NCBI RefSeq assembly: GCF_034009455.1
Contig: NZ_CP125380.1
Location: 4,167,501 to 4,231,500, forward strand
Direction: 5' to 3'
DNA length: 64,000 bases
Source: Pseudomonas sp. P5_109
GTDB taxonomy: Bacteria > Pseudomonadota > Gammaproteobacteria > Pseudomonadales > Pseudomonadaceae
Numbering within the stretch: position 1 is the stretch's first letter; each line of letters begins with the position of its first letter. Made by a program: the position numbers and the translations under genes. The notes under the pieces are model-generated. The model was given only the letters and a program-made list of their open reading frames with translations, was not told the origin of the DNA and did not search any database. This document shows positions 39,453 to 60,729 of this stretch, piece by piece.

Positions 39453-39469
39453 CCACCCGGACCGGGTGG
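39453..39469. promoter_or_regulatory. CCACCCG palindrome, box 1 (ALDH operon)
   Basis: CCACCCGGACCGGGTGG is a perfect palindrome. Its centre is 104 bases before the ALDH start codon, in the gap after the LuxR gene. One of seven related boxes in the catabolic cluster. Confidence 0.75.
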
Positions 39470-39489
39470 GTGGCGTCACGTCGATGGAC

Positions 39490-41691
39490 TCAAGCCAGGA
39501 TGCCCATGGCCTTGGCACTGTTGATCGCCTGGGTGCGACGGCATGCGCCGAGCTTGACGTTGATGTTCTTGGCGTGGGTTTTCACGGTGTTTTCCGAGAT
39601 GAACAAGCGGCTGCCAACTTCGCGTACCGACATGCCTTCGGCGAGCAACTTGAGCACCGACACCTCGCGCGGTGTCAGGTCGTCCTGGTAATCCGGCACG
39701 CCGCTCGTGCGCGCAGGCGAGGCTTTGTCGTCGTTGGCCGGTTGCTCGCGGGCGGCGATCCTGGCTTGCTGTCGCGCGATCGGCCCCTGGTAGCACGCCG
39801 CGTGGACCTTGCCCCAATGCATGCGCCGCTCGGCTTCATGCAAATGCCAGCGGGCCTTTTCCAGGTCATGGCTGCGAGCGGCGATTTCCGATAACAGCAG
39901 ATAGGCGTTGAGCACAAAAGGCGCGCAACAGTCGCGAACCTGCAACAGCCCCGCCTGCACCACCACCTCGGCTTCGTTGACGTGGCCCTGTTGCAACAAC
40001 AACTCGCCTTGCTGGAACAACAGTCGACCGCGCAACGGATAAGGCTGTCCCGTACTGACGGTCAACCGGTTGAGCTCGCTGCGCACCAGCGATTGCGCGA
40101 GCCGCGACTGCCCCTGAAGCATCAGCAAGCGCACCCGGTCGACGTTGACCAGCACCTCCGATTCATGGCTGCCCTGGCGTCGGGCCAGCTCCAGCGAGTG
40201 ATCCAGCAGCGACTGGGCCTCGACGAGGTCGCCGGCATCCATCGCGATGCGTGCCAGGATGCAATGGCACAACAGCACCGACAGCCAATCCTCAGCCGTC
40301 AGGTAGTCAAGGGCCGCACGACAATGCAGGCGCGCCGGATCGACATGGCCGCGCTGTGCCTGCAAGGTGCCGTACAAGGCCTGCCAGTTTGCCAGCAGGC
40401 GCTGGTTGCGCCGCGTATCGGCCAACGGCAGAAAGTGCCCGAGTCGCATCAGGCAATCACCGGCTTCGTCCAGCCGCCCGCTGAACAACAACGCCTTGGC
40501 ACACAGGTAAATCAGGCGCGGGCTGCTGTGCAGCAATTGCGGTTCGATACGCTCGCGCCAGTCCATCAGCTTGTTCAGATGCCGTTCGCCGAGGATCCAG
40601 CTCAGCCACAAGCGCTCCATGTAATTGGCCGCCACCTCGGGCTGATCGGCGCATAACGCCTGCTCGACGGCATCGTCGACATGCCCCAGCACGCTGAGCA
40701 ACTGGCAGGCTCGCAAGCGCAAGCGGTTCAGTGCCAGGCCGGTCATCTGCTGCTGTAGCACCCGGGCTACGACGGGTAGCAGCCGGAACCAGCCAGGTTG
40801 TTGATCGATCGGGAACACAAAGGCCTGGCCGTGCAGCAGGCTGTCGAACACCCGACCGCCCTGCTGGCCTTCCCACAACTGTTCGCAGAGGTCGGCACTG
40901 ACCCGAGACAAATGCGCGAGGCCACACAAGACCTCGCGCTGCTCTTCACTGAGCCGCGACAGCAGTTCACGCTCAAGGTACTGACCGAGCAAGGGAGCCG
41001 AAAGCGACAGGCGAACACCGGCGCACCACCCGCCGGTCTCATGCCAGAGCTTTTCCCTGGACAGTGCATCGGTGTGCGGCGCGAGGGCATCGATCAGCGA
41101 TTCGAATTCGTCGGGGCGCAGGGCCAGTTGCCGGGCATCGAGCTCCAGCAGTTGGCCGGTCAGCATCAGGCGCGGCAAATTCCAGTCCGGGCGTTGACGG
41201 CAGGTGACCAGCACTTGCAGGTGCGGTTTTTTCAGGGACAGGAGTTGGTCGAACCAGTGGTTCAGGTCTGGCGGCAGCTGTGCCGGCAGGTCGTCGAAGA
41301 TCAGGCTTAGCTTGAGATCTTCGCTGTCAGCAAGGGCCTCTTCGCGAGCAAGCCCGCTCCCACAGGGGAACGCGGTCAACTGTGGGAGCGGGCTTGCTCG
41401 CGAAAGGGGTGTAACAGGCACCGACACTCCTGAATCGAGAAACGCCAGCACCCCATCCGCCGCCGTATCAACCGCCAACCCCAACGCCCCCGCCAATCGT
41501 GCAATGAAGTGCTCCAGCGTCTGAAGCTGCCCACCCAAAGACACCCACACCACCCGCCCCACCGTCGCGACACCCTGCAAATACTCCTGCAAAACCGACG
41601 TCTTGCCATACCCGGCAGGCGCGCAAAGCAGTTGCAAGCGGCAAGGTTTGCTCTCGAGTACGTCGCACAGATGCGGTCGTGGCACCAACAT
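39490..41691 (-). CDS. MalT-like LuxR-family regulator 1, with REPIN inside the reading frame
   Basis: A 733-residue regulator. An N-terminal NTPase has P-loop APAGYGKTS (about 24-32) and Walker B LSLIFDDLP (about 129-136); a long TPR-like helical middle follows, and a C-terminal LuxR HTH is at LTPREVSVLKLLAEGMSVREVGSRLFISENTVKTH in pieces. Between the Walker motifs, about residues 95-119 (PLSRASPLPQLTAFPCGSGLAREEA in parts) are encoded by a REPIN (41340-41406) that keeps the frame open. ATG 41691 follows GAGG; ATG 41703 is the alternative. Box 2 lies just upstream, suggesting autoregulation. Probably activates the surrounding operons; whether the insertion harms ATP binding is unknown. Confidence 0.87.
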   Translation of the reverse strand: MLVPRPHLCDVLESKPCRLQLLCAPAGYGKTSVLQEYLQGVATVGRVVWVSLGGQLQTLEHFIARLAGALGLAVDTAADGVLAFLDSGVSVPVTPLSRASPLPQLTAFPCGSGLAREEALADSEDLKLSLIFDDLPAQLPPDLNHWFDQLLSLKKPHLQVLVTCRQRPDWNLPRLMLTGQLLELDARQLALRPDEFESLIDALAPHTDALSREKLWHETGGWCAGVRLSLSAPLLGQYLERELLSRLSEEQREVLCGLAHLSRVSADLCEQLWEGQQGGRVFDSLLHGQAFVFPIDQQPGWFRLLPVVARVLQQQMTGLALNRLRLRACQLLSVLGHVDDAVEQALCADQPEVAANYMERLWLSWILGERHLNKLMDWRERIEPQLLHSSPRLIYLCAKALLFSGRLDEAGDCLMRLGHFLPLADTRRNQRLLANWQALYGTLQAQRGHVDPARLHCRAALDYLTAEDWLSVLLCHCILARIAMDAGDLVEAQSLLDHSLELARRQGSHESEVLVNVDRVRLLMLQGQSRLAQSLVRSELNRLTVSTGQPYPLRGRLLFQQGELLLQQGHVNEAEVVVQAGLLQVRDCCAPFVLNAYLLLSEIAARSHDLEKARWHLHEAERRMHWGKVHAACYQGPIARQQARIAAREQPANDDKASPARTSGVPDYQDDLTPREVSVLKLLAEGMSVREVGSRLFISENTVKTHAKNINVKLGACRRTQAINSAKAMGILA
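41340..41406. repeat. REPIN inside the LuxR1 coding sequence
   Basis: Two arms of the GTGGGAGCGGGCTTGCTCGC family, 41340-41364 and 41381-41405, are arranged in the reverse orientation to the other REPINs, with a 16-base spacer. Both arms are intact and the whole element is read through in frame. Confidence 0.9.
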
Positions 41692-41749
41692 GGCGGACCT
41701 CATGGATGGAAAGTGAACTCCATCATTGGGCCAGTCGGCTGTTCAGGCG

Positions 41750-41766
41750 CCACCCGCATCAGGTGG
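41750..41766. promoter_or_regulatory. CCACCCG palindrome, box 2 (LuxR1)
   Basis: CCACCCGCATCAGGTGG, one mismatch from a perfect palindrome. Its centre is 67 bases before the LuxR1 start at 41691. Confidence 0.7.
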
Positions 41767-41773
41767 GTATCAA

Positions 41774-41820: not shown

Positions 41821-43188
41821 TCAGCGAATGCCGTCGTTGCGCAGCGCCGCCGGGGTGAAGTCGGTCATTTTCGCGGTCATGCCGTAGGTGGTGGCATGCC
41901 TGGACTGGTTGGTCATCGCCAACACGTTGTAGCGCCCGGCGATCAGGTCGTAGATGCCGAGCATGGCGAAGTTCGACGCACCACGCTCGTAATCGTTGAC
42001 CGCATAACCTTCCGCGACACGCCACAGCTGGCCACGACCGTCGTAGTGATCGACTTCGGCCAGTTGCCAGGTGTCTTCGTCGAAGTACATGTCACGCTTG
42101 GCGTACACGTGGCGCTGCCCCGGCTTCAGCGTGGCCTGCACGTGCCAGACGCGGTGCAGCTCATAACGCGTCAGGTCCTGGTTGATGTGCCCCGGCTTGA
42201 TGATGTCGTCGTATTTCACCTTCGGCGATTGCAACTTGTAGTTGTTGTACGGGATGTACAGTTCCTGTTTGCCCACCAGCTTCCAGTCATAACGATCCGG
42301 CGCGCCGTTCATCATGTCGGTGTTGTCGGCGGTGCGCATGCCGTCGGAGCCGTTGCCCGGCCCGTCATACGCCACTTGCGGAGCACGGCGCACCCGGCGC
42401 TGACCGGCGTTGTAGACCCACGCCAGGCGCGGTTCCTTGACCTGGTCGATGGTCTCGTGGATCAGGATCACGCTGCCGGCCATGCGTGACGGCGCGGTGA
42501 TTTCCTGTTTGTAGTAGTACAGGACATTGTCGGCCTGCCCGGCATCGACGCCTTCCATCAATTGCGGGAAGGCCAGTTTGTCCTCGTACTCGACGATGGA
42601 ATAAGACCCGTTGGTTTGCGGAGCGGCCTGGGCCGCTATGCGTTCCATGTTGCCGCCGCGATAGCGGTTGGTGTGGTTCCAGTACACCTCCACACCGTTC
42701 TTTGGAATCGGGAACGGGTAATAGCGGGTCTGGGTGAAGTTTTCCAGGCCGTTGCCATCGGGGGTCAGTTCGGTGGTCACCGCACTCTTTTTGGCAATGT
42801 CATAGATGTTCTGCGGCGAGGCTGCGGTGCGCTGGGTCTTGAACACCGGGATCTTGTAGCTGTCCGGGTAGCGCTTGAACATCGCCAGCTGGCCGGGGGT
42901 CAGCTTGTCCTTGTACTGGTCGACGTTGGCTGCCGTGATCACGAACTGCGGTTTTTCACCGGCGAACGGATCGCCGAGAAAACCATTGTCGAGTGCCGCC
43001 GCACCGGGTTTGAGGCCACCGGTCCAGGCAGGAATGCTGCCGTTGGCATTGCCCTCTTTCTGCGCGCCCAGTGGCGTCAGAGTGGTACCCAGTTGCGCGG
43101 CTTCCTGCGGGGTAACAGCGGCCATTACACCGCTGGCCAGCAATGACAGACTCAGTGCGCCAGCGCGCAGCATTAAACGTGCGTTCAT
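41821..43188 (-). CDS. DUF1329 envelope protein
   Basis: A 455-residue exported protein with signal peptide MNARLMLRAGALSLSLLASG ending near VMA-AVTP. Typical DUF1329 features are GSIPAWTGGL near the N-terminus, NVLYYYKQEITAPSRMAG, and HRVWHVQATLKPGQRHVYAKR. The family has a LolA/LppX-like lipid-binding-type fold and is nearly always paired with DUF1302. ATG 43188 follows AGAGGAA. It lies 26 bases after the DUF1302 gene. Such pairs accompany clusters for steroids and other hydrophobic substrates, so a role in uptake across the outer membrane or periplasm is plausible but unproven. Confidence 0.9.
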   Translation of the reverse strand: MNARLMLRAGALSLSLLASGVMAAVTPQEAAQLGTTLTPLGAQKEGNANGSIPAWTGGLKPGAAALDNGFLGDPFAGEKPQFVITAANVDQYKDKLTPGQLAMFKRYPDSYKIPVFKTQRTAASPQNIYDIAKKSAVTTELTPDGNGLENFTQTRYYPFPIPKNGVEVYWNHTNRYRGGNMERIAAQAAPQTNGSYSIVEYEDKLAFPQLMEGVDAGQADNVLYYYKQEITAPSRMAGSVILIHETIDQVKEPRLAWVYNAGQRRVRRAPQVAYDGPGNGSDGMRTADNTDMMNGAPDRYDWKLVGKQELYIPYNNYKLQSPKVKYDDIIKPGHINQDLTRYELHRVWHVQATLKPGQRHVYAKRDMYFDEDTWQLAEVDHYDGRGQLWRVAEGYAVNDYERGASNFAMLGIYDLIAGRYNVLAMTNQSRHATTYGMTAKMTDFTPAALRNDGIR

Positions 43189-43214
43189 GTTCAGGTTCCT
43201 CTGGCAGGGTTGCA

Positions 43215-45047
43215 TCAGAAATTCACGCCGAAGCTCAGCGCGGCATAGTCGCGGTCGACGTTGGTATTGAAATCGCCACCGAAGTAGTTGGTGTAACTGA
43301 GGCTGGCGGTGTAGGTGTTCTGGTAGTCGGCATCGACACCGACGCTGACCGCCTTGGAGCCTTCATCGAAGTTCGGGCCGTAGCCCTGGACGTCATGGGA
43401 CCAGGCGATGTTCGGCGACAGGTTGATGCCGGCGATCACGTTCGGGTAATCGAGCTTGCCGCGCAGGCGATAGCCCCAGCTGCTGCTGGTGTAGAAACCA
43501 TCGTTGTTGCATTCCTGCGCCGGGTTGCTGGCGTTGGGCAGGCCCGCTGCGGTGCCACGGCAAGTGGCGGCACCCACAGCACCCGGCAGTTCACCGGAAC
43601 CGAAGGCCGGGCTGCGACCGAAGCGCAAGTCCGTGCCGTCCGCCTTGCCCAGGCCGTTGATCTTGTTGTAACCCACCTCGCCCACCAGGGTCAGGCGACT
43701 GGCGCCGAAGACCTGATCGAAGAACTGCGTGGCGGTCACCTGTGCCTGGGTCACCGGCATGCGCTTGTAGCCATTGACCTCGCCGCCCAGGGTACGTCCG
43801 GCGAAACCGGTGGTGATCAGCGGCGACGTCGCACCGAAGGTTGCCGAAGACAGCAGGTCAGCGGTGTTCAGTTGCAGCGGCATGTTCGGCCGGTAGCTGA
43901 CTTCGCCACCGAGCGAGACGCCGGCGACGTTGGTCTGGAAGCTCAAGCCATACAGGCGGATGTCTTCCGGGTAATCGATGAAGTAGCGGGCACTGCGCGC
44001 CGAAGCGACGCCACCGGCCGGGTTGCTCATCTGGTTGATACTGAGGAACGGGCTGCGACTGTGGTAGTTCATCGCGTAGGCACCGAACTCGGTGTCATTG
44101 GCCTCTGGCACGTACCAGCGCAAGGCCAGGCCGTACTGACCGCTGTCGCGTGCATCGTTGTCTTTGAGGCGCGGAATGAAGGCGTCATCGGTGCCCGCGG
44201 CAATGGCTGCCAAGCCACCGGTGTTCTTCGCCACGCCCGGCGGCAGGTCGAGACCGGCGATCACCAGGCGGTCGTCGCAGCCTTGGGGTACGCCGTCGCT
44301 GCCGAAGAACGTGCCGCAGTTGTCCACCACCGACTTGTCCCATTGCAGCTGATAAAACGCTTCGGCGGTGATGTTGTCGGCCAAGCCCTGGGACACGTAG
44401 AGCAGGTTGACCGGAATCAGGCCCTCCTTCACTTCCGCGCCCGGGCGGCGCAGTGCCGCGACGTCGATCGGGTTGATGCTGTTGATCGAGTTGCCGATGA
44501 AGGTACTCTCGCCCCAGCTCACCACTTGCTTGCCCAGGCGCACGTTGCCGACCTGATCGCCGATCGTGTAGTTGTGGTAGACGAAGCTGTCGAGGAACAT
44601 CGCGCCGGACGACTTGGCCGCACGGTCGCGTCCTGAGTCGTTGATGTCATAGAACGGACGGCTCTCGTCCATCAGCTCGAAGTCGTACCAGTACTTGCCG
44701 CGCACGAAGGCGCCGCTGTCGCCGTACTTCAGCTCCAGGTCATGCACGCCCTTGAAGATCTTCGAGAAGGTCTCACCCTTCTTGAAGTTCAGGCGATTGT
44801 CATCGGTGGTCCGGGACGAGGACTTGCCGCCGGTGACACCCTGGGAGTTGAAGTTGGAGATGAATTGCTTGTCTGGATCAGCCGTCGACCAGCTCGCACC
44901 GATCGACAGCGACGAATCGAAATTTCCCTGGATTTCCCCGATGTTGAAATCAACAGCGTGAGCCTGATTGCTCGCGCAAGCGGCAACCATCACAGCGACG
45001 GCCAGCAGACTCGGCTGGAAGACTCCGCGCATTGTTTTTGTTGTCAT
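43215..45047 (-). CDS. DUF1302 outer-membrane protein
   Basis: A 610-residue protein with a long signal peptide (to about residue 31, NQAHA-VDF) and repeated amphipathic beta-strands ending in a C-terminal Phe (SFGVNF), the mark of an outer-membrane barrel. RLGKQVVSWGESTFIGNSIN and INPIDVAALRRPGAEVKEGLIP are the DUF1302 signatures. GGAG lies about 7 bases before ATG 45047; a longer upstream frame is spurious. First gene of the DUF1302-DUF1329 unit, with box 3 about 75 bases upstream. Likely a channel for a hydrophobic growth substrate. Confidence 0.9.
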   Translation of the reverse strand: MTTKTMRGVFQPSLLAVAVMVAACASNQAHAVDFNIGEIQGNFDSSLSIGASWSTADPDKQFISNFNSQGVTGGKSSSRTTDDNRLNFKKGETFSKIFKGVHDLELKYGDSGAFVRGKYWYDFELMDESRPFYDINDSGRDRAAKSSGAMFLDSFVYHNYTIGDQVGNVRLGKQVVSWGESTFIGNSINSINPIDVAALRRPGAEVKEGLIPVNLLYVSQGLADNITAEAFYQLQWDKSVVDNCGTFFGSDGVPQGCDDRLVIAGLDLPPGVAKNTGGLAAIAAGTDDAFIPRLKDNDARDSGQYGLALRWYVPEANDTEFGAYAMNYHSRSPFLSINQMSNPAGGVASARSARYFIDYPEDIRLYGLSFQTNVAGVSLGGEVSYRPNMPLQLNTADLLSSATFGATSPLITTGFAGRTLGGEVNGYKRMPVTQAQVTATQFFDQVFGASRLTLVGEVGYNKINGLGKADGTDLRFGRSPAFGSGELPGAVGAATCRGTAAGLPNASNPAQECNNDGFYTSSSWGYRLRGKLDYPNVIAGINLSPNIAWSHDVQGYGPNFDEGSKAVSVGVDADYQNTYTASLSYTNYFGGDFNTNVDRDYAALSFGVNF

Positions 45048-45114
45048 GCGGTTTCTCCGGTTAAGGATTAAGTGTTGGAGAGCCCATGCTAGTGGGGCTC
45101 TGGTCCGCTCCTCA

Positions 45115-45128
45115 CACCCGAACGGGTG
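45115..45128. promoter_or_regulatory. CCACCCG-type palindrome, box 3 (DUF1302 operon)
   Basis: CACCCGAACGGGTG is a perfect palindrome but with a 2-base instead of 3-base centre and no outer CC/GG pair conserved. Its centre is about 75 bases before the DUF1302 start; a TAGCAT -10-like element lies between. Confidence 0.55.
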
Positions 45129-45170
45129 ATTTGAAACGGTGTTGTTCGCCGGGTTGGGTCCGACGTAACA

Positions 45171-45214: not shown

Positions 45215-46414
45215 TCACCCGCCGGTTTTTCCGTACAGCGTCACCACGCAGGCCCCCCCCAGGCCGAGGTTGTGCGCCATGGCCAGGCGTGCACCGTCGA
45301 CCTGGCGCTGCTCGGCATTGCCGCGCAATTGCTGGGTCAGCTCGTAGCACTGCGCCAGGCCGGTGGCGCCCAAGGGATGGCCCTTGGAAAGCAGGCCGCC
45401 GGACGGGTTGATCACGGTCTGTCCGCCGTAGGTGTTGTCGCCGTCCATGACGAACTTCTCGGCGCCGCCCTCGGGGCAGAAACCCAGCGACTCGTAGCAG
45501 ATCACTTCGTTCTGGGCGAAGCAGTCATGCAGCTCGCAGACATCGATGTCTTGCGGGCCGACGCCGGCCTTCTCGTAGACCTGGCCCACGGCGGCGTGGG
45601 TCATGTGGGTGCCGACCCAATCGAGCATCGAGGGTTTTTCGAAATTGAAGGATTCGGGGGTGTCGGTGGTCATCGCCTGGGCGACGATTTCCACGTCGCG
45701 GCGCAGGCCATGCTTCTTGGCAAAACGCTCGGACACCAGGATCGCCGCCGCGCCACCGCAGGTTGGCGGGCAGGCCATCAGGCGGGTCATCACGCCTGGC
45801 AGAATCACCGGGTCGTTCATCACGTCTTCGACGCTGAGCACCTTGCGAAACAAGGCGAGCGGGTTGTTGGCGGCATGCCGGCTGGCCTTGGCGCGCACAG
45901 CGGCGAAGGTCTCCATGCGGGTGCCGTATTTGTCCATGTACTCGCGCCCGGCACCGCCGAAGGTGCGGATCGCCTGGGGCATGCCGTCCATGTCGGCAGT
46001 CAGGCCGCGCAGGATCGGCAGGAAACGCTCACGGGTTGGCGGGCGGTCGTCCCAGTGAGACTTCAACGCGCCGGCCTGCATCTGCTCGAAACCCACCGCC
46101 AATACGCAATCGGCCGAACCTGTTTCGATGGCCTTGCGCGCCAGGTACAGCGCCGTGGAACCGGTGGCACAGTTGTTGTTGACGTTGACCACCGGAATCC
46201 CGGTCATGCCCACTTCGTACAGCACGGTCTGCCCGCAGGTGGAGTCGCCGTAGACGTAACCGGCGTACACCTCCTGCACCAGGTTGTAGTCGATGCCGGC
46301 ATCGGCCAGGGCGCGACGCACCGCTTCGGCCCCCATCTGCACATAGCTCGGGCTGTCGCTGGGCTTGCGGAAAGGGATCATGCCGACGCCGGCAACCAGT
46401 ACTTTTTCGCTCAT
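45215..46414 (-). CDS. SCP-x-type thiolase / lipid-transfer protein 1
   Basis: A 399-residue thiolase-superfamily protein of the SCP-x group. The nucleophilic Cys is in VNVNNNCATGSTALYLA (about 92), the His of ELHDCFAQNE and the His of SGGLLSKGHPLGATGLAQC complete the site, so catalysis is expected. It should cleave a 3-ketoacyl-CoA, often with a bulky or branched chain. A close paralogue is at 56193-57377. It lies 28 bases after an LCAD-type dehydrogenase gene, the same pairing as in the second copy. Confidence 0.9.
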   Translation of the reverse strand: MSEKVLVAGVGMIPFRKPSDSPSYVQMGAEAVRRALADAGIDYNLVQEVYAGYVYGDSTCGQTVLYEVGMTGIPVVNVNNNCATGSTALYLARKAIETGSADCVLAVGFEQMQAGALKSHWDDRPPTRERFLPILRGLTADMDGMPQAIRTFGGAGREYMDKYGTRMETFAAVRAKASRHAANNPLALFRKVLSVEDVMNDPVILPGVMTRLMACPPTCGGAAAILVSERFAKKHGLRRDVEIVAQAMTTDTPESFNFEKPSMLDWVGTHMTHAAVGQVYEKAGVGPQDIDVCELHDCFAQNEVICYESLGFCPEGGAEKFVMDGDNTYGGQTVINPSGGLLSKGHPLGATGLAQCYELTQQLRGNAEQRQVDGARLAMAHNLGLGGACVVTLYGKTGG

Positions 46415-46442
46415 GGTGTCACCTGGAAATGAGGGGGAAGGA

Positions 46443-47582
<1,140 letters not shown>

Positions 47583-47660
47583 CGGAATCTCCAGTGGATT
47601 GCCAGGCAGACAAGCGCCTGGTTCGTGAGTCCACTGTATTGATGCGGGTGGGTGGTGAAG

Positions 47661-47677
47661 CCACCCGGATCGGGTAG
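47661..47677. promoter_or_regulatory. CCACCCG palindrome, box 4 (ACAD1-thiolase 1)
   Basis: CCACCCGGATCGGGTAG has one mismatch. Its centre is 87 bases before the ACAD start; a TACAGT -10-like element lies between. Confidence 0.7.
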
Positions 47678-47706: not shown

Positions 47707-47806
47707 TGTAGGAGCGAGCTTGCTCGCGATGGACGCAAGGACGACGCGTCAATTCAGGCAGTACGCGTTTTCGTTGACGTCCATCGCGAGCAAGCTCGCT
47801 CCTACA
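47707..47806. repeat. REPIN overlapping the end of acyl-CoA synthetase 1
   Basis: Arms GTAGGAGCGAGCTTGCTCGC and its complement lie at the two ends. The right-hand arm contains the TAG stop codon (47802-47804, minus strand) of the synthetase gene. Confidence 0.88.
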
Positions 47807-49325: not shown

Positions 49326-49329
49326 GCTG

Positions 49330-50886: not shown

Positions 50887-50937
50887 GAGGTGCTCCTGTG
50901 AATTATTGTTGTCAGGTAACGAACGCGACGCTGCGGA

Positions 50938-51741: not shown

Positions 51742-51846
51742 GGGCTAACTCCTGCGCTCCACTGCTGCTCCGCGGTTTTGATGGAGCGCCACGCGGCACT
51801 CCTGTTGTTATGCCGTCCAGTAGATCAATCCGTGATTCGCCGACGA

Positions 51847-51863
51847 CCACCCGCATCGGGTGG
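51847..51863. promoter_or_regulatory. CCACCCG palindrome, box 5 (ECH operon and LuxR2)
   Basis: CCACCCGCATCGGGTGG is a perfect palindrome midway between divergent genes: its centre is 114 bases from the ECH start and 102 bases from the LuxR2 start, so it could serve both. Confidence 0.75.
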
Positions 51864-51956
51864 TGGATGCACAAGTCAGGGTCATGACTGGCGGGCTCTG
51901 GGTTACACTCGAGTGGATTCGTGCCCTCTTAAAACAAAAATGATTCGGACAGCCCC

Positions 51957-54779
51957 ATGGACAAACACCGCAAGTCCAATGCATCGGACACTATCGCGAG
52001 CCAGGTCTTGAATCCGACACAGTCCCCGATCGTCAGCACCAAACTGATTCCGCCGCGCAGCGCCGGACGCCTGATTTCCCGCGAGCGCCTGCAGGATCAA
52101 ATGCTCAAGGCCCGCCGCCTGCGTTGCATCGTGCTCAAGGGGCCGGCCGGCTGCGGCAAGACCTCGACCCTGATTGCCTGGCGCCAGGCGCTGTTGCCGT
52201 TGGGGTTCGACGTGGCGTGGCTGACGCTGTCGGCGGATGACAACGAACTGACGCGCTTTCTTGACTATCTGCTGGCAAGCCTCGGCCAGATCGACCCGCT
52301 GCTCGTGCGTGAAGCCACGCAACTGGAAGGTCGCGGCATCGACAGCGAAGCCGTGGAGCGCACCGTCATCACCCTGGTGCGCAGCATTGCCAGCCGGGGC
52401 CGCGAACTGGTGCTGGTCCTCGATGACCTGCACCACCTCACCGACGTGGGCATTCACCAGGCCCTGCAATGGCTGATCGACTACGCCCCGGCCAACCTGC
52501 ATCTGGCGGTGGTGTCGCGCAGTGCCGTGCCATTGTCCCTGGCGCGGTTGCGCAGCCAGGAGCTGGTGCTGGAGCTGAACCTGCGGGACTTGCGCTTCAC
52601 CCCGGTTGAGTCTGAACAGTTCCTCAAGGCGCAGTTGGGCGAGATCAACGCCCGCGACGCCAAGCTCATGCACGAGCTGACCGATGGCTGGGTCGCCGGC
52701 CTGCAACTGCTCGCCGTCAGCCGCAAAAAGAACCGCCCGCCCGCCGTCACGGACACCACGTCGGTGCAAACAGAGCTACGGGACAATCAGGCCTTCGCCC
52801 GGTTCTTTGAAATCGAAGTACTGTCCCACCTGTCGCCAACCGACCTCGACCTGCTGCTGCTCATGGCCGTGTGCAACCGCTTCTGCGCCTCGTTGTGCGC
52901 CGCCTTGAGCGGTCACCCGCAAGCGGTCGACGACGCCAATGCGCTGCTGGCGCGGCTGGAGCGGGACAACCTGTTCCTGATCCCGGTCGACAGCGCCGAG
53001 CGTGAAACCTGGTATCGCCTGCACCCATTGCTGCGCGAAACCCTGCTCAAGTATTTCGACTCGCGCAGCAAGGCCGAGCAACAAGCGGTGCACGTGCGGG
53101 CATGGAACTGGTTCCGCGAGCACAATCACCTGGATGAAGCGGTGCACCATGCAGTCATGGGCGGCGACCCGGCTGCCGCCGCCGACCTGGTGGAACAACA
53201 CGCCGAAGCGCTGTACGCCCATGGTGACCTGCGCATGTTGATCGAGCTGGTGCGGCTGTTGCCGGTCGAGCAGGTCCAGGCCCGGATCAAGCTGCGCATC
53301 CTGAAGACGCGGATGCAGCTGTATGCCCGGGATTTCGCGGCCTGCACCGCCAGCCTCGAACAACTGTTCCGCGACGTTCCCGAGAGCGAAGTGCATGACC
53401 GCTTCATGATCTCGCTGCTGCGCGCCTCCCTCGCCCTGCAACGCGATGACACCGACGCGGCCATGACGGTCCTGCCGCAATTGCTCAACCCGCCGCCGGG
53501 CAGCAACAGCGTGGCCATCGGTTCCTGCGCCAACATCCTGTCCTGGCTGTACATGCATCGTGGCGAATACGAAAAGGCCCGGCAGGTACAACTCGACCGC
53601 CCGAACCTGCTGATCAATGGCCAGCCGCTGCTGGGGACCACCGCCGGCAGCCTTCAGGGTCGTTGCATGATTGGCTTGAGCCTGGCCCTCGAAGGCCAGA
53701 TGACCCAGGCGGAACGGGTTTACCGTGACGTGCTGCATGAGGCCAACCAGTGCGGCAAGGCCGGTGCCGACGCGACCTACCTCTCCGCCGCGCTGCTCGG
53801 TGAGGTGCTGTACGAGACCAACGATGTCGACGCCGCATTCAACATGCTCTCGGGCTGGATCGACATCCTCGAACGGATTTCGATTCCCGATTCCGTGCTG
53901 CGTGTGCTGCAAGTGCTGTGGAATGTGCAATGGCTGGCGGGCAACCAGCAGGAGGCCCTGGCGTTTGTCGAGCGCCTGGATGAGTACGCGATCAAACTCG
54001 GCCTGGAGCGCCTGCAAGCCTACTGCCTGACCTGGCAGGTGCGCTGGCTGCTGATTCTCGGGGAGAGCGCACAAGCCCAGGCCAAGCTGGCGCGCCTGGA
54101 AGCCATCGACGCGCGTTACCCGGATGCCGGGCACACGGCGCTCAAGGAAATCCACATCCTGGCCGAGAACGCCCGCGCTCGCTGGCAACTCGCCCAGGGC
54201 GACCTGGACGGAGCCTCCATCCGCATCGAACAGTTGATCGAGACGTGTGAAAAACACCGCCGCCAACTTGGGACGGTACGCCTGATGGTGCTCAGTGCGG
54301 TGATCGAGACCGAACGGGGCCGCCATGAGCAGGCGCGGGACAAGGTCATGGAAGCCTTGCGCCGGGGCCAACGCTTCGGCCTGGTGCGCAGCCTGCTCGA
54401 CGCCCATCCGAATGCATTGAAACTGATCGGCGATATCGCCAGCCGTGAAGCCCTGGACCCGGTGCTGGCGTTTTACGTCGAGCGCCTGCAGGCGGCCGAG
54501 GCCACGGCCCCGACGGTCTCGAAGGCCAAGCCGGCGACAGCGACCACCAGCAAACCACTGGCGGCCGGAATCGAGCCACTGAGCGAGCGCGAAATCGAAG
54601 TCGTGCGCCTGCTGGCCCAGGCCCTGCCCAACAAGAAAATCGCCCGCGCCCTGGGGCTGTCCCCGGAAACCGTGAAATGGCACCTGAGCCATATCTACAG
54701 CAAGCTCGGCGTCAGCAGCCGCGATGAAGCGGTGGCGCGGGTGCGGGATCTGGAATCGCAAAGCGATACCGGCCTGTAG
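51957..54779 (+). CDS. MalT-like LuxR-family regulator 2
   Basis: A 940-residue regulator. The N-terminal STAND-type NTPase has P-loop [13 protein letters not shown] (about 59-71) and Walker [13 protein letters not shown] long helical TPR-like sensor follows, then a low-complexity Ala/Thr/Lys linker (about 845-865) and a C-terminal LuxR HTH at [45 protein letters not shown] in parts. It resembles AlkS/MalT-type activators that sense a ligand and ATP. The ATG at 51957 lacks a good ribosome-binding site. Divergent from the ECH operon; box 5 lies between. Likely a main activator of the cluster. Confidence 0.9.
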
Positions 54780-54921: not shown

Positions 54922-54938
54922 CCACCCACCTCGGGTGG
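54922..54938. promoter_or_regulatory. CCACCCG palindrome, box 6 (ACAD2 operon)
   Basis: CCACCCACCTCGGGTGG has one mismatch. Its centre is 96 bases before the ACAD2 start at 55026; a TATCGT -10-like element lies about 20 bases after the box. Confidence 0.7.
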
Positions 54939-55025
54939 CGTTCGCTCGCGGCCCCCCACCTATCGTAACCCTCAAATCACAGGCGCTTGGCCCAATGCCG
55001 GCCCGCTATCTTTGAGGAGTCTTGC

Positions 55026-56165
55026 GTGCACATCGCCCGAACCGTTTTCCGCGACGACCATGAGATGTTCCGCACCACCGTGCGCCGTTTTTTCGAGCGT
55101 GAATGCCTGCCGCGCCAGGCGGCCTGGGACAAGGCCGGCCAGGTCGACCGGGAAACCTGGCTCAAGGCCGGTCGCGAAGGTCTGCTCGGCATCACCCTGC
55201 CCACCGAGTACGGCGGTGGCGGCGGCGACTTCGGCCACTGTGCGGTGTTCAACGAAGAGTTCGCCCGGGCCGGCGTGAGCGGTGCCTACTTCGGCATGCA
55301 CTCCGACGTGATCGCCCCATACATCAATCGCTGCGGCAATGAAGAGCAAAAGCAAAAGTGGCTGCCAGGCATCTGCTCAGGCGAAATCATCCTCGCCATC
55401 GCCATGACCGAACCCGGCACCGGCAGCGACCTCAAGGCCGTGCGCACCAGCGCCGTGCGCGAGGGTGACGAGTACGTGATCAATGGCAGCAAGACCTTCA
55501 TCAGCAACGGCCTGACCGCCGACCTGGTGATCGTCGTGTGCAAGACCGACCCGGCCGCTGGCGCCAAGGGCATCAGCCTGATTGCCGTGGAGACCAGCCG
55601 CGCCGGTTTCAAGCATGGCCGCAAGCTGGAAAAGGTCGGCCAGCACGCCCAGGACACCGCCGAGCTGTTCTTCGACAACGTCCGCGTGCCGGTCGGTAAC
55701 CGCCTGGGCGAGGAAGGCCTGGGCTTCACCTACCTGATGGGCGAACTACCGCAAGAACGTTTTTCCATCGCGGTCTCCGCCGCCGCCAAGCTGGAGCGCC
55801 TGCTTGAGCAAACCATCGAGTACGTAAAGGACCGCAAGGCCTTCAACCAGACCGTGTGGGACTTCCAGAACAGCAAATTCAAGCTCGCCGACATCAAGGC
55901 CCAGGCCACCGCCCTGCGGGTGATGGTCGACTACTACCTGGGCGAACACATGCGTCGCCGGCTGACCCTCGAAGAAGCCGCCATCGCCAAGCTGCACACC
56001 ACCGAAACCGTGTGGAAATGCATCGACGACATGGTCCAGTTGCACGGCGGCTACGGCTACATGATGGAGTACCCGATCGCCCGCGCGTTCGTCGACATGC
56101 GCGTCAACCGCATCTACGGCGGCACCAGTGAAGTCATGCGCGAAATGATCGCGCGCAAGCTCTGA
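55026..56165 (+). CDS. LCAD-type acyl-CoA dehydrogenase 2
   Basis: A 379-residue paralogue of the dehydrogenase at 46443-47582, colinear from HIARTVFRDDHEMFRTTVRRFF to YGGTSEVMREMIARKL. FAD/substrate motif AMTEPGTGSDLKAVRT is intact and the presumed catalytic Glu is in LERLLEQTIEYVKDRKAF. The GTG at 55026 is set by GAGGAGT upstream and by alignment with the paralogue; the frame extends 13 codons further. First gene of ACAD-thiolase-MaoC-MaoC-SDR, preceded by box 6. Confidence 0.9.
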   Translation: MHIARTVFRDDHEMFRTTVRRFFERECLPRQAAWDKAGQVDRETWLKAGREGLLGITLPTEYGGGGGDFGHCAVFNEEFARAGVSGAYFGMHSDVIAPYINRCGNEEQKQKWLPGICSGEIILAIAMTEPGTGSDLKAVRTSAVREGDEYVINGSKTFISNGLTADLVIVVCKTDPAAGAKGISLIAVETSRAGFKHGRKLEKVGQHAQDTAELFFDNVRVPVGNRLGEEGLGFTYLMGELPQERFSIAVSAAAKLERLLEQTIEYVKDRKAFNQTVWDFQNSKFKLADIKAQATALRVMVDYYLGEHMRRRLTLEEAAIAKLHTTETVWKCIDDMVQLHGGYGYMMEYPIARAFVDMRVNRIYGGTSEVMREMIARKL

Positions 56166-56192
56166 ATCTCTCAAACAACAAGGAAAACAACG

Positions 56193-57377
56193 ATGAGCAA
56201 TAAAGTGTTCGTTGCTGGCGTCGGCATGATCCAGTTCAAGAAACCGGGGACCAACGAGCCCTACGACATCATGGGTGAGCAGGCGATTCGCCTGGCCCTG
56301 GCCGATTGCGGCCTGGACTTCAGTGACATCCAGCAGGCCTACGCCGGTTACGTCTACGGCGACTCCACCTGCGGCCAGAAAGCCCTGTACCGCGTCGGCA
56401 TGACCGGCATCCCACTGGTCAACGTCAACAACAACTGCGCCACCGGTTCCAGCGCGCTGTTCCTGGCTCGTCAGGCCGTGGCCAGCGGTGCGGTGGACTG
56501 CGCCCTGGCATTCGGCTTCGAACAAATGAATCCGGGTGCGCTGAAATCCGCCTGGACCGACCGCGCCCCGGCCACCGAACGCGCCCTCAAGCTGACCAAC
56601 GAACTGGTGGGCATGCCCGACCTGCCGACCGCCATCCGCCAGTTCGCCGGCGCCGGCTACGCGCACATGCAGAAGTACGGCACCCGCCTGGAAACCTTCG
56701 CCAAGATCCGCGCCAAGGCCAGCCGTCACGCGGCCAACAACCCGCTGGCCGTGTTCCGCAACGTGGTCAGCACCGAAGAAGTGCTGGCCGCGCCGATGCT
56801 CTGGGAAGGCGTGTTGACGCGCCTGATGGCCTGCCCGCCGACCTGCGGCGCCGCCGCGAGCATCGTGGTGTCCGAGGCCTTCGCGAAAAAGCATGGCCTG
56901 CGCACCGACGTGCTGATGGCCGGCCAGGCCCTGACCACCGACCTGCCGAGCACCTACGACGCCAAGGACATGATCCGCGTGGTCGGTTTCGACATGACGC
57001 GCATGGCTGCTGATATCGCCTACAACCAGGCCGGCATCGGCCCGGAAGACATCAACGTGATCGAACTGCACGACTGCTTTGCGCAGAACGAACTGCTGAC
57101 CTACGAAGGCCTCGGCCTGTGTGCCGAAGGCGGCGCCGAGCAACTGGTCAACGACGGCGACAACACCTACGGCGGCCAATGGGTGACCAACCCGTCCGGC
57201 GGCCTGCTCTCCAAGGGCCACCCGCTGGGCGCCACCGGCCTTGCGCAGTGCTACGAGCTGACCCACCAGTTGCGCGGCACCGCCGAGCAACGCCAGGTGC
57301 AGAACGCGCGCATCGCCGTGCAACACAACCTCGGCCTGGGCGGCGCCTGCGTCGTCACCGTGTACCAGAAAAACTGA
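56193..57377 (+). CDS. SCP-x-type thiolase / lipid-transfer protein 2
   Basis: A 394-residue paralogue of the thiolase at 45215-46414. The nucleophilic Cys (VNVNNNCATGSSALFLA), His of ELHDCFAQNE and His of SKGHPLGATGLAQC are all conserved. It would cleave a 3-ketoacyl-CoA. AAGGAA precedes the ATG, 27 bases after the dehydrogenase stop. The same dehydrogenase-thiolase pair in both copies shows that the two genes were duplicated as a unit. Confidence 0.9.
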   Translation: MSNKVFVAGVGMIQFKKPGTNEPYDIMGEQAIRLALADCGLDFSDIQQAYAGYVYGDSTCGQKALYRVGMTGIPLVNVNNNCATGSSALFLARQAVASGAVDCALAFGFEQMNPGALKSAWTDRAPATERALKLTNELVGMPDLPTAIRQFAGAGYAHMQKYGTRLETFAKIRAKASRHAANNPLAVFRNVVSTEEVLAAPMLWEGVLTRLMACPPTCGAAASIVVSEAFAKKHGLRTDVLMAGQALTTDLPSTYDAKDMIRVVGFDMTRMAADIAYNQAGIGPEDINVIELHDCFAQNELLTYEGLGLCAEGGAEQLVNDGDNTYGGQWVTNPSGGLLSKGHPLGATGLAQCYELTHQLRGTAEQRQVQNARIAVQHNLGLGGACVVTVYQKN

Positions 57378-57406
57378 AACGGCCAGCGATCCAGGGAGTC
57401 ATTCAG

Positions 57407-57847
57407 ATGATCGACAAAAAACACATCGGCAAGCAGTTGCCCACCTTCCTCGTCACCGCCGAAGCCGGGCAACTGCGCTTCTTCGCCAAGGCCACCGGGG
57501 AAACCAACCCGGTCTACTTCGACGAGCAGGCCGCTCGCGACGCCGGGCATCCAGCCCTGCCGCTGCCGCCAACCTTCCTGTTCTCGCTGGAGTTCCAGAT
57601 CCCGTCCAACGCCTGGCGCGACGAACTGGGCATCGTCACCGCGCGCATCCTGCACGGTGAAGAGTCGTTCCGTTATCACCGCATGGCCTATGCCGGCGAC
57701 ACCCTGCGTTTCGATGTGCGCATCGCCGACATCTACGACAAAAAAGGCGGCGCGCTGGAATTCGTGGTGCGCGAAACCCGAGTCACCAACCAGCATGGTG
57801 AGCACGTCGCGGACCTGCGCAGCGTGCTCGTGCAGCGCAACAGCTGA
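57407..57847 (+). CDS. MaoC-like hydratase subunit (degenerate hydratase motif)
   Basis: A 146-residue hot-dog-fold protein of the FAS1/MaoC N-terminal type. The hydratase-2 motif is altered: FAKATGETNPVYFDEQAA has Glu for the catalytic Asp and Tyr for the catalytic His. It therefore probably serves as the partner of the intact MaoC protein encoded 14 bases downstream, like ChsH1/ChsH2-type heteromers acting on bulky enoyl-CoAs. GGGAG precedes ATG 57407; the longer upstream frame overlaps the thiolase and is rejected. Confidence 0.87.
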   Translation: MIDKKHIGKQLPTFLVTAEAGQLRFFAKATGETNPVYFDEQAARDAGHPALPLPPTFLFSLEFQIPSNAWRDELGIVTARILHGEESFRYHRMAYAGDTLRFDVRIADIYDKKGGALEFVVRETRVTNQHGEHVADLRSVLVQRNS

Positions 57848-57861
57848 AGCGGAGAACACTG

Positions 57862-58278
57862 ATGAACGCGATTAGCCTGGAAAAAATCAACATCGGCGAC
57901 AGCCTGCCACCGCTGGCGATACCGCCGATCAACCGCACCACGCTGGGGCTGTTTGCCGGCGCGTCGGGCGACCACAACGCCATTCACATCGACACCGATT
58001 ACGCACGCAAGGCCGGCATGCCCGACGTGTTCGCCCACGGCATGTTGTCGATGGCCTACCTCGGTCGCTTGCTGACCCAGTGGGTCGATCAGCGCCAGTT
58101 GCGCGAGTTCGGCGTGCGCTTTCTCGGCATTACCCACCTGGGCCACCAGATCAACTGCACCGGCACCGTCGTTGAGCGCTTCGACATCGAAGGCGAGCAA
58201 CGGATCAAGGTCGAAGTGCGCACCACCAACCAATACGGCGAGACCAAGATCGTTGGTGACGCCGTGATCGCTCTGTAA
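57862..58278 (+). CDS. MaoC family enoyl-CoA hydratase
   Basis: A 138-residue hot-dog-fold hydratase. FAGASGDHNAIHIDTDYARKAG fits the hydratase-2 motif with catalytic Asp and His present, followed by VFAHGMLSMAYLG. It should hydrate an enoyl-CoA to the (R)-3-hydroxyacyl-CoA used by the SDR encoded 30 bases downstream. GCGGAG precedes the ATG. Confidence 0.9.
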   Translation: MNAISLEKINIGDSLPPLAIPPINRTTLGLFAGASGDHNAIHIDTDYARKAGMPDVFAHGMLSMAYLGRLLTQWVDQRQLREFGVRFLGITHLGHQINCTGTVVERFDIEGEQRIKVEVRTTNQYGETKIVGDAVIAL

Positions 58279-58308
58279 ACAAACCCAAGAATTGAGGAGC
58301 AACACCCC

Positions 58309-59133
58309 ATGGCAAAACTCGAAGGCAAAGTCGCACTGGTCACCGGTTCCGGTCGTGGCATCGGTCAGCAAATCGCCCTGAAACTGGCGAGCGAAGGCGC
58401 GCGCATCGTGATCAACGACCTGGACGCCGATCCGGCCCACGAGACCGCTGAGTTGATCCGCAAGATGGGTGGCGAAGCCGCCGTGTGCCACGGCAACGTC
58501 AGCGCCCCGGACTTCGGTGACCGCTACGTGAAGACCGCGATGGACAACTTCGGCAGCATCGACATCATCGTCAACAACGCCGGCTACACCTGGGACGACG
58601 TGATCCAGAAGATGAGCGACGAGCAGTGGTACGCCATTCTCGACTGCCACATGACCGCGCCATTCCGCATCCTGCGTGCGGCCTACCCGATCATCAAGGC
58701 CCAGGCCCTGGCGGACGCGGCAGCCGAGCGTGAAGTGTTCCGCAAAGTGGTGAACATCTCGTCGGTTTCGGCTCTCAACGGCAACGCCGGGCAGATGAAC
58801 TATTCCTCGGCCAAGGCCGGTGTGATCGGCATGACCCGCGCGCTGGCCCGCGAATGGGGCCGCTTCAAGGTCAACGTCAACGCCGTGGCCTTCGGTTTCA
58901 TCGAAACCCGCATGACCAAGGCTGATGCCCACGCCGGCGCCACGGTGAACATCGAAGGCCGTGACATCCGCGTCGGCATCAGCCCGGAAGCCGCCAAGTC
59001 GTTCGCCCAGCGCAACCCGCTGGGCCGTCCGGGCACCGTGCAGGAAGCGGCCGACGCCGTGTACCTGTTCTGCTCGCCGGAGTCGAACTACATCACGGCG
59101 CAGACCATCGCGGTGGCGGGCAATCTGCAATAA
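58309..59133 (+). CDS. SDR-family 3-hydroxyacyl-CoA dehydrogenase-type enzyme
   Basis: A 274-residue short-chain dehydrogenase. Cofactor motif TGSGRGIGQ with an acidic VINDLDAD after strand 2 (NAD preference), NNAG, catalytic Ser in VNISSVSA and the Y-x-x-x-K pair in NYSSAKAG are intact. It resembles FabG/HSD17B4-like dehydrogenases that oxidise (R)-3-hydroxyacyl-CoA, matching the MaoC hydratase upstream. GAGGAG precedes the ATG. Last gene of the ACAD2 operon. Confidence 0.9.
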   Translation: MAKLEGKVALVTGSGRGIGQQIALKLASEGARIVINDLDADPAHETAELIRKMGGEAAVCHGNVSAPDFGDRYVKTAMDNFGSIDIIVNNAGYTWDDVIQKMSDEQWYAILDCHMTAPFRILRAAYPIIKAQALADAAAEREVFRKVVNISSVSALNGNAGQMNYSSAKAGVIGMTRALAREWGRFKVNVNAVAFGFIETRMTKADAHAGATVNIEGRDIRVGISPEAAKSFAQRNPLGRPGTVQEAADAVYLFCSPESNYITAQTIAVAGNLQ

Positions 59134-59151
59134 CCGATAAGCACCAATCCT

Positions 59152-59338: not shown

Positions 59339-59983
59339 ATGAACATGACTGAAAGCACCATCCGCCTGGCAGCCATCAAACTGATCTCGCGTAACGGCTA
59401 CGGGTCGATGAGCCTGCGTCAGCTGGCTGCCGAATCGGGGATCAACTCCTCGACGCTGTACCTCTATTACCAGGGCAAAGGTGAGTTGCTGCTGGAGCTG
59501 ATCCTCGAATACTTCGAGACAATGTCCCAGGAGTGGGCTCGATGCCGCCCTGCCTTAGCGCGTGCCGATGGCAAACTCCGCGCTTTCGTGGCCTGCCATG
59601 TGCGCTATCACCTGGAACATCAGGACCAGGCAGTACTCGGCAACCTGGAATACCGGAGCCTGGACGAAGAGTCCCTGGCCCTGGTGCGCCAGGCCCGCCG
59701 GGTGTACCTCAAAGACCTGCAAGACCTACTCGAACAAGGCATTCGGGAAGGTTCGCTGAGCTGCGCCGAACCGAAATTGATGGCCCGGACCCTGTTCAAC
59801 ATGCTCACCCACGCCTGTGTCTGGTATCAGGCCGATGGCCGCTGGAGCATCGACGACGTCATCCGCCATTACTCGGAACTGGTGCTGAAAATGCTCGGCG
59901 CCATGCCCATCGCATCACCTCGCACACCCGTGCGCCGTGCGGCCATTACCCGCCGCGCCGCGCCACTGGAGGCCGTTTCATGA
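59339..59983 (+). CDS. TetR-family transcriptional regulator
   Basis: A 214-residue TetR-type repressor. The N-terminal HTH is IRLAAIKLISRNGYGSMSLRQLAAESGINSSTLYLYYQGKGELL in parts (about 8-51); the C-terminal ligand-binding domain resembles the TetR_C_33/KstR2-like types by its EQGIREGSL and LMARTLFNMLTHACVWY segments. ATG-overlap (ATGA) couples it to the following degenerate SDR. No CCACCCG box precedes it, so it is probably controlled differently and may sense an acyl-CoA of the pathway. Confidence 0.88.
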   Translation: MNMTESTIRLAAIKLISRNGYGSMSLRQLAAESGINSSTLYLYYQGKGELLLELILEYFETMSQEWARCRPALARADGKLRAFVACHVRYHLEHQDQAVLGNLEYRSLDEESLALVRQARRVYLKDLQDLLEQGIREGSLSCAEPKLMARTLFNMLTHACVWYQADGRWSIDDVIRHYSELVLKMLGAMPIASPRTPVRRAAITRRAAPLEAVS

Positions 59984-60612
59984 GCGACCTCATGCAACCC
60001 TTTTCCATGGCCGGTAAAACCGTGCTGGTGGCCGATGCCACCACGCAACTCGGTGCCCATTTCGCCCGGCTGATCAGCCTCGCAGGCGCCCGGGTGGCCC
60101 TCGGCGCGCAATGTCCTGCGCAGCTTGAGCAGTTACAAGCCGACCTGCGCTGGGATGGCGGCGAAGTGCTGATCGTCAGCCTCGACAGCACCCGCCGTCC
60201 CAGCATCGAGGCGGCACTCGATGCCGTCGAGGAGCGCTTCGGCAGCGTCGATGTGCTGATCAACAACAGCGCCGAGCGCGAACATTTGGCGCGCAACAAC
60301 CACCTGGTCCATTGCACCAGCCGGCACATGATCAAGGCCGAGCGTGGCGGCAGCATCGTCAACATCGACCCGCCACCGCGCCCGATCAGCGAGCCCAACC
60401 CGTGTTTGCGCGCCAACAGCAGCCTGATCCGCATGAGCCGGGCCATGGCCCAGTCGCTGACGCCGCACCGGATTCGGGTCAACGTGATTGCCGCCGGACG
60501 CGGCAAGGACGCAGGGCTGCAAGAGCTCAACGGCCCCTTGTTGTTGCTGGCCAGCGGCGCCGGTGCCAGCGTCACCGGCGCGGTGCTGCACGTCGACAAC
60601 CGCAATATCTGA
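59980..60612 (+). CDS. Degenerate SDR-fold protein
   Basis: A 210-residue short-chain-dehydrogenase-like protein starting with an ATGA overlap on the TetR gene. The fold is visible (KTVLVADATTQLGAHFARL, DVLINNSAER, IVNIDPPP, RIRVNVIAAGRG), but the glycine-rich loop is altered and the Y-x-x-x-K pair is absent: the position reads PCLRANSSLIRMSRA. At 210 residues it is also shorter than the usual 250. It is probably not a dehydrogenase; translational coupling suggests a job with the regulator. Confidence 0.82.
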   Translation: MSDLMQPFSMAGKTVLVADATTQLGAHFARLISLAGARVALGAQCPAQLEQLQADLRWDGGEVLIVSLDSTRRPSIEAALDAVEERFGSVDVLINNSAEREHLARNNHLVHCTSRHMIKAERGGSIVNIDPPPRPISEPNPCLRANSSLIRMSRAMAQSLTPHRIRVNVIAAGRGKDAGLQELNGPLLLLASGAGASVTGAVLHVDNRNI

Positions 60613-60618
60613 ACAGAC

Positions 60619-60701
60619 GTAGGAGGCGGCTTGCTCGCGATGGCGGCCTTGAATTGTGCAGCGATCTTTCGGGCCTCATCGCTGGCAAGCCAACTCCTAC
60701 A
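60619..60701. repeat. REPIN before the sulfatase gene
   Basis: Arms GTAGGAGGCGGCTTGCTCGC and GCTGGCAAGCCAACTCCTAC are diverged from each other, so this copy looks decayed. Confidence 0.75.
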
Positions 60702-60712
60702 AGGGATGTGTG

Positions 60713-60729
60713 CCACCTGATTTGGGTGG
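60713..60729. promoter_or_regulatory. CCACCCG-type palindrome, box 7 (sulfatase)
   Basis: CCACCTGATTTGGGTGG is the most divergent 17-bp copy, keeping the CCACC and GGTGG ends. Its centre is 84 bases before the sulfatase start at 60805. Confidence 0.6.

Follow-up and report, generated by a model that had tools for sequence, protein, structure and literature searches.

A set of seven palindromic boxes of the form CCACCCG-N3-CGGGTGG lies in a catabolic gene cluster of Pseudomonas sp. P5_109, within a 64,000-nucleotide stretch of contig NZ_CP125380.1 (positions 4,167,501 to 4,231,500; hereafter the window, by which all coordinates without a prefix are numbered). The sequence evidence makes it highly probable that one pathway-specific activator of the LAL type, LuxR2, uses the seven palindromes as operators, drives seven operons and activates its own gene. 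This reading was based on the boxes themselves, their spacing, their conservation, the asymmetry of their half-sites and their co-occurrence with LuxR2. From these we infer binding and activation by LuxR2 and its dependence on ATP and an inducer.

Palindromic boxes and promoter geometry

A mismatch scan recovered six 17-bp copies. Two were perfect, namely box 1 (39453..39469, minus strand) before the ALDH-ADH-acyl-CoA dehydrogenase operon and the bidirectional box 5 (51847..51863, no strand assigned), which has the ECH-acyl-CoA-synthetase operon on one side and luxR2 on the other. One mismatch was found in box 2 (41750..41766, minus strand; CCACCTGATGCGGGTGG as oriented to LuxR1), in box 4 before ACAD1-thiolase 1 (47661..47677, minus strand; CTACCCGATCCGGGTGG) and in box 6 before ACAD2-thiolase 2-MaoC-MaoC-SDR (54922..54938, plus strand; CCACCCACCTCGGGTGG). 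The sulfatase copy, box 7 (60713..60729, plus strand; CCACCTGATTTGGGTGG), was the most divergent of the six with two mismatches. All of this agreed with the preliminary description of the window. The remaining copy, box 3 before DUF1302-DUF1329 (45114..45129, minus strand; TCACCCGTTCGGGTGT), is a variant with a 2-bp spacer.

The preliminary description had noticed no further box in the window, which is correct for sites with at most one mismatch, while a two-mismatch site was found at 27053. With up to three mismatches the window contained 15 sites against a shuffle mean of 8.4, and 4 of 100 shuffles reached 15. Since this is only weakly above chance, the signal is carried by the sites with zero to two mismatches. 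The host genome is a single contig of 6,956,178 bp, in which nine sites with at most one mismatch were found, compared to two for the reversed control. Five of the nine fell within this 21-kb stretch (binomial P about 3e-11, for a stretch whose limits were set from the same boxes). The remaining four fell within genes predicted by a simple caller based on codon usage; the open reading frame that holds the site at genome position 2030263 scored weakly. Neither frequency of the motif across the genome nor a location mainly inside genes, both named beforehand as outcomes that would speak against a local regulon, was observed. At two mismatches or fewer there was no genome-wide excess (72 sites vs 69 in the reversed control), so a regulon outside the cluster is not readable from mismatch counts alone.

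All boxes had been described as intergenic. Those at 47661 and 45115 lie within the longest possible open reading frames of ACAD1 and DUF1302, and they are intergenic only with downstream ATG starts; the alignments of both proteins to their relatives start at these ATGs. Box centres were measured 65-114 nt upstream of plausible ATGs, in line with the 67-114 given earlier, the start of ACAD2 being uncertain.

In all seven window promoters a -10-like hexamer begins exactly 23 bp after the box (positions +23 to +28). On the minus strand these are AACCAT for box 1 (39425..39430), AATGAT for LuxR1 (41722..41727), TAGCAT for DUF1302 (45086..45091), TACAGT for ACAD1 (47633..47638) and TCTACT for the ECH operon (51819..51824), and on the plus strand TATCGT for ACAD2 (54961..54966) and GAACAT for the sulfatase gene (60752..60757). 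An offset of 23 was the best of 60 (mean score 2.87, runner-up 1.69), and none of 20,000 shuffles matched it at any offset. A conserved -10-like hexamer at one place was also seen when promoters of several species, with identical sequence rows removed, were aligned on the box; when columns were shuffled jointly within each of five cross-species groups, 0 of 5000 shuffles reached the observed spacing score. No box was matched in a scan for sigma-70-type promoters or in one for intrinsic terminators. With the -10 set as -12 to -7, the box spans about -51 to -35. It takes the -35 position without a -35 element, as an activator site would, and the fixed distance in seven of seven promoters, together with the absence of any sigma-70 match, is the pattern predicted for a class II activator. 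A promoter of an alternative sigma factor was considered and rejected, as the gap of 22 bp between CGGGTGG and the -10 would be too long for a -35/-10 pair.

Box 5 has a second hexamer, TACACT (51904..51909, plus strand), which begins 41 bp past the box on the luxR2 side. Among 22 loci of named Pseudomonas, TACACT or TACATT was found at this distance in 21. On the ECH side of the same box all 22 carried a hexamer at +23, which was TCTACT in 13, TTAACT in five and TTTACT in four.

The two halves of the box are not equally conserved. In 70 promoter-oriented boxes from the five groups there were 61 mismatches in the distal half vs 8 in the proximal half, counts that are not independent, since the rows are related to one another and in part duplicated. 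The half adjacent to the -10 hardly varies. Two ACAD2 rows (L099 and L112, whose nearest match is ACAD1) and one ACAD1 row (L118) were left out of this count, and L099 and L112 also out of the cross-species spacing test and the scan for weaker boxes.

The variant box 3 follows the same rule. Its core, CACCCG-AA-CGGGTG at 45115, is the sole exact match to the spacer-2 core in the whole genome. The pattern TCACCC[G/A]TTCGGGTGT-N22-TAGCAT was kept before DUF1302 in the window, in genomes G172, G107, G131 and G089 and in loci L097, L101 and L103; the box was degenerate in the G027b copy, and no DUF1302-type spacer-2 site was seen in G027a. Read in the 7-3-7 register, the relatives showed three to five mismatches, and the conservation appeared in the spacer-2 register. 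The distal half has moved in by one base, with the proximal half and the spacing unchanged, and this speaks for a register set by the proximal half-site together with the -10.

In the mechanism that we propose, LuxR2 with inducer and ATP bound would occupy the box (about -51 to -35) as a GerE dimer, standing in for the missing -35 element and contacting RNA polymerase on a -10 hexamer at a constant distance of 22 bp downstream, as in class II activation. The promoter-proximal CGGGTGG would be the fixed half, and the distal half would be free to vary, being shifted by one base in one promoter. Box 5 would serve two divergent promoters. The one of the ECH-acyl-CoA-synthetase operon has the usual spacing; on the other side, that of luxR2 has its -10 at 41 bp, which puts the box centre at about -61, and positive feedback may result. 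LuxR1 would be a downstream target and the TetR-family protein a separate, optional layer.

Conservation of the boxes and the choice of regulator

LuxR2 (51957..54779, plus strand), the predicted binder of all boxes, is a MalT/LAL-type regulator of 940 aa. It contains a P-loop, GPAGCGKT, at residue 62, with AAA_16 above the cut-off, and the MalT TPR domain PF17874 (residues 485-816) and the GerE domain PF00196 (874-927) were both above their cut-offs. An N-terminal P-loop NTPase, a MalT-type TPR region and a C-terminal GerE helix-turn-helix in a protein of about 900 aa are the features of the LAL/MalT type. Two other regulators are encoded in the cluster, LuxR1 (39490..41703, minus strand), a second LAL regulator that is the target of box 2 and dispensable for box conservation, and a TetR-family protein with a FadR-like C-terminal domain (59339..59983, plus strand), which is optional in relatives.

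A contig scan with LuxR2 returned 36 loci, the 22 from named Pseudomonas and 14 others from Paraburkholderia, Caballeronia, Cupriavidus, Variovorax and two metagenome-assembled genomes (L116 and L121). A box was present 107-140 bp upstream of luxR2 in all 22 Pseudomonas loci (17 perfect, five with one mismatch), and the centre of the sulfatase box lay at -84 in all 20 rows that bear it among 21 rows examined. Genes of the same clusters without a box gave four to six mismatches at best (TetR 16/16, Thio1 40/40, SDR 39/39, ACS1 28/29, ACS2 28/29), the exceptions being one ACS1 row and one ACS2 row with a one-mismatch site. Genomes G172, G107, G131 and G089 are probably loci L111, L098, L102 and L107, so that the gene-row box counts and the half-site counts are partly double.

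Outside Pseudomonas, where the LuxR2 relatives share 49-57% identity, 9 of the 14 loci carried a site with at most one mismatch, 17 sites in total, and 11 of the 17 had an A/T hexamer at exactly +23. The preliminary description had asked for the box beside orthologous clusters, and it was present there in both groups. Three further loci, L117, L128 and L129, had weaker boxes followed by a -10-like hexamer at +23, which raised the total to 12 of the 14 loci. L121, one of the two loci without a box, was also the only one with the recognition helix SYQT in place of SPET, a single case.

Co-occurrence was evaluated in 199 genomes of the genus. A LuxR2 orthologue (at least 61% identity) was found in six, including the genome studied here; two further genomes matched at 30-32% only and were taken to hold paralogues. 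Perfect boxes occurred in 16 of the 199, all six LuxR2 genomes among them (Fisher P 1e-7). When the box was combined with its hexamer in the composite CYACCYGATNCGGGTGG-N22-NANNNT, 13 sites were obtained, which fell in exactly the six LuxR2 genomes and all on cluster contigs. Of the ten perfect boxes in LuxR2-negative genomes, none was followed by a +23 hexamer with A as its second and T as its sixth base, a test that the ECH hexamer itself would fail at position 2; five of the ten lay outside called genes.

A looser form of the composite was also searched. In the P5_109 genome, at no more than one mismatch, it gave six cluster promoters and six scattered sites (reversed control 5), together with two opposite-strand readings of cluster boxes, and we see no distal regulon member above the control level. 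In 15 genomes (the 14 non-Pseudomonas ones and P. schmalbachii) there were 12 exact sites, eight inside LuxR2 loci and one starting 268 bp past the locus edge on the same contig; of the other three, one lay beside the LuxR1 orthologue of P. schmalbachii and two elsewhere. At no more than one mismatch the same genomes gave 57 strand matches vs 16 for the reversed control. In G089 a perfect box with TAAGGT at +23 precedes a gene on another contig (L081:9479-9495) whose product looks secreted, and this gene is a possible distal regulon member.

The preliminary description had proposed one or both MalT-like LuxR proteins as readers of the boxes. This was supported, and conservation, the fixed -10 spacing and co-occurrence point to LuxR2 of the two. 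That the boxes are read by LuxR1, or by LuxR1 and LuxR2 jointly, for example as a heteromer, is an unlikely alternative, though LuxR1 has a GerE domain and adjoins two boxes. Since LuxR1 and LuxR2 occur together in all six genus genomes, their separation comes from the non-Pseudomonas loci: a search at E<=1e-20 detected no LuxR1 in any of the 14 genomes outside Pseudomonas that carry a LuxR2 relative, and 12 of their loci have boxes. LuxR1-like proteins of 45-47% identity are encoded in G015 and G093, genus genomes in which neither a perfect nor a composite box occurs. Furthermore, the recognition helices of the two proteins differ (SENTVKTHAKN in one of them), and the LuxR2 region of G027a has boxes without LuxR1. 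As a necessary binder LuxR1 was rejected on its not being found in the 14 genomes and on its relatives in the two genomes without such boxes.

TetR proteins bind palindromes of similar size. If the TetR/FadR-like protein were an acyl-CoA-responsive repressor, the boxes might be its operators, its gene being in the cluster and its C-terminal domain matching PF17932; the protein also matches a FadR model weakly, with a score under the model's threshold. We consider this very improbable. No TetR relative was found (E<=1e-10) in G172 and G089, both of which keep the boxes, and on this ground TetR was rejected as a necessary binder; none of the 16 tetR rows has a box before the gene itself, and boxes at the -35 position of promoters that lack a -35 element would suit an activator better than a repressor. 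Finally, the palindromes have GC-rich 7-bp stems with a 3-nt loop, lie mostly between genes and have REP-like repeats commonly nearby, yet the notion that they are RNA hairpins (terminators) or mobile repeats and not protein sites has a negligible probability and was dropped, given that the terminator scan matched no box, that box 5 lies between divergent starts, that the distance to the downstream start and the -10 is fixed while the upstream neighbour varies (TetR, for example, is present or absent before the sulfatase box), and that base changes fall mostly in one half without matching changes in the other.

Several observations weigh against operation of all boxes by LuxR2 alone. The -10 offset was first spotted by eye on the same box-anchored cross-species alignments, and the composite was derived from the same Pseudomonas promoters in which it was counted. 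LuxR1 accompanies LuxR2 in all six genus genomes. Two of the 14 non-Pseudomonas genomes are metagenome-assembled and of unstated completeness. Six of the 17 non-Pseudomonas sites have no A/T hexamer at exactly +23; in some of these the hexamer lies one base further on or is of the ECH type. L121 and L127 have LuxR2 relatives and no box, and one LuxR2 copy in G027 has no box of two mismatches or fewer directly upstream. For the DUF1302 box, L112 and L126 retain the proximal half alone and have lost the +23 hexamer, and a 2-bp spacer is odd for a rigid dimer. Judged from sequence, the most likely explanation is nevertheless a real, compact regulon that follows a clear rule for operator and promoter and is read by LuxR2.

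Cluster genes and the probable pathway

Genes were assigned from Pfam and NCBIfam. The minus strand carries two PimC/PimD-like acyl-CoA dehydrogenases, a Zn-alcohol dehydrogenase and an ALDH (34402..39426), the DUF1329 and DUF1302 genes (41821..45047), thiolase 1 and ACAD1 (45215..47582), and two acyl-CoA synthetases with ECH (47802..51741); the starts of DUF1302 and ACAD1 were chosen by hand. ACAD2, thiolase 2, two MaoC hydratases and an SDR (54987..59133) and a type I sulfatase with the motif CTAGR at residue 78 (60805..62385) are on the plus strand. Both thiolases contain a Thiolase_C_1 domain.

Most Pseudomonas loci have a type I sulfatase, whereas the Variovorax locus L125 has an SdsA-type-like gene. 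In L125 luxR2 and an acyl-CoA-synthetase gene are separated by a region that holds a box and, at +23 from it, a -10-like hexamer; the gene after the synthetase (L125:6131-8005) reads, from its translation alone, as an SdsA-type alkylsulfatase. The sulfatase of the cluster and the gene in L125 make a sulfate ester a reasonable inference for the substrate. The pathway probably begins by removing the sulfate ester and oxidising the alcohol to the acid; the acid would then be activated with CoA and its bulky or branched chain degraded by beta-oxidation.

Some differences in gene content and structure were also observed. An extra acyl-CoA-dehydrogenase-like gene is found beside thiolase 1 in 15 of the 22 named Pseudomonas loci, where the window has DUF1302 directly (45129-45215). 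L094 has a CaiB/BaiF CoA-transferase-like gene between ECH and luxR2 that is missing in the window (51741-51957), and the gap between ECH and luxR2 in G172, G107, G131 and G089 is similar in size to that of L094. A long hairpin, CACAACGCCCTGC-AA-GCAGGGCGTTGTG (41776-41803), separates the LuxR1 box from the DUF1329 end and is perhaps the terminator of DUF1329. Within luxR1, an in-frame inverted pair of a short repeat occurs in the NTPase region (41337-41407); the repeat is scattered through the genome and is presumably REP-like. The alignments of LuxR1 to G089 and G027 begin only past this pair.

Related activators and significance

MalT of E. coli is similar to LuxR2 in having a P-loop NTPase, a TPR region and a C-terminal GerE domain, and the NCBIfam MalT model covers LuxR2 residues 25-520. 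Its equivalogue model NF003420 scored 304.9 bits vs a cut-off of 537, so LuxR2 is not assigned as MalT. The sites of MalT are short direct repeats.

AlkS of P. putida GPo1 is closer in kind. In the available extract of the published account, this LuxR/MalT-type catabolic activator acts at PalkB and PalkS2 through an inverted repeat upstream of the promoter and activates its own synthesis by positive feedback (PMC8784404). The combination of a LAL activator, an inverted repeat and positive feedback is therefore already known from AlkS. The AlkS site is described in that extract as a 20-bp inverted repeat and the regulon as controlling alkane monooxygenase. In contrast, the cluster studied here has a GC-rich box of 17 bp at seven promoters, with one bidirectional box, and no alkane monooxygenase was found among the cluster genes scanned. 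The ACTU motif of CrbR, which acts in acetate utilisation in P. fluorescens, is a 17-bp inverted repeat at -52 to -36 that was found necessary by mutation, as far as the extract of that source goes (PMC5715377). CrbR is likewise a GerE-type activator of the LuxR family, and its repeat lies near the position of our box (-51 to -35). It differs, in the same extract, in belonging to a two-component system, in its site sequence (e.g. TACTACCATCGTCGAAT) and in its targets, which are separate acetate-utilisation genes. A literature search, covering mostly titles and the openings of abstracts, did not find the box sequence, the seven-promoter layout, the regulator family or the cluster, which does not show their absence from print.

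A search blind to box sequence, which required a gene downstream of a 7-3-7 palindrome and its -10 at +23, recovered four cluster boxes, together with one unrelated palindrome in the cluster, and gave no hit in 119,004 control bases. In G173 the same search gave three hits at two sites with CCTCCC...GGGAGG halves beside a 29%-identical regulator. The wider region there contained four CCTCCCG-type boxes with up to two mismatches, one of them perfect, and one box separated the regulator from a divergent gene and had TAGTAT at +23. Beside a 31%-identical regulator, G002 has a perfect CCTCCCG-N3-CGGGAGG with a -10-like CATGCT at +24, and a one-mismatch box lies further off. The clusters around the boxes of G173 (L207, L208) and G002 (L209, L210) are different ones that contain acyl-CoA dehydrogenase genes. 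The paralogue regions of G027 and G089 (L086-L088) and the first G002 locus (L052) yielded no 7-3-7 box followed by a -10 at +23. When a box of its own for LuxR1 was sought beside LuxR1-like proteins (L160-L167, L204-L206), the search yielded, apart from the LuxR1-type box already known in L204, four scattered palindromes, a frequency close to that of the control (14 hits in 138,905 bases).

These data tentatively suggest that paralogous LAL activators of Pseudomonas and Burkholderiaceae may share one grammar, consisting of a 17-bp 7-3-7 palindrome, a 22-bp gap, a -10 and a bidirectional box at the regulator gene, in which one base per half-site would separate the paralogues. We regard this as possible and still doubtful, the cases being two in number, found post hoc and without a conservation test. 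If it is true, the LAL operator code would be evolvable and its specificity predictable from sequence.

For the cluster itself, the composite motif provides a precise search pattern, which identified the six LuxR2 genomes among 199 without error. The placement of a sulfatase and a beta-oxidation set under one proposed switch would narrow the search for the substrate. Furthermore, a family of large LuxR regulators, with 667 relatives (E<=1e-100) among 7992 scored candidates, gains a predicted operator, promoter geometry and regulon.

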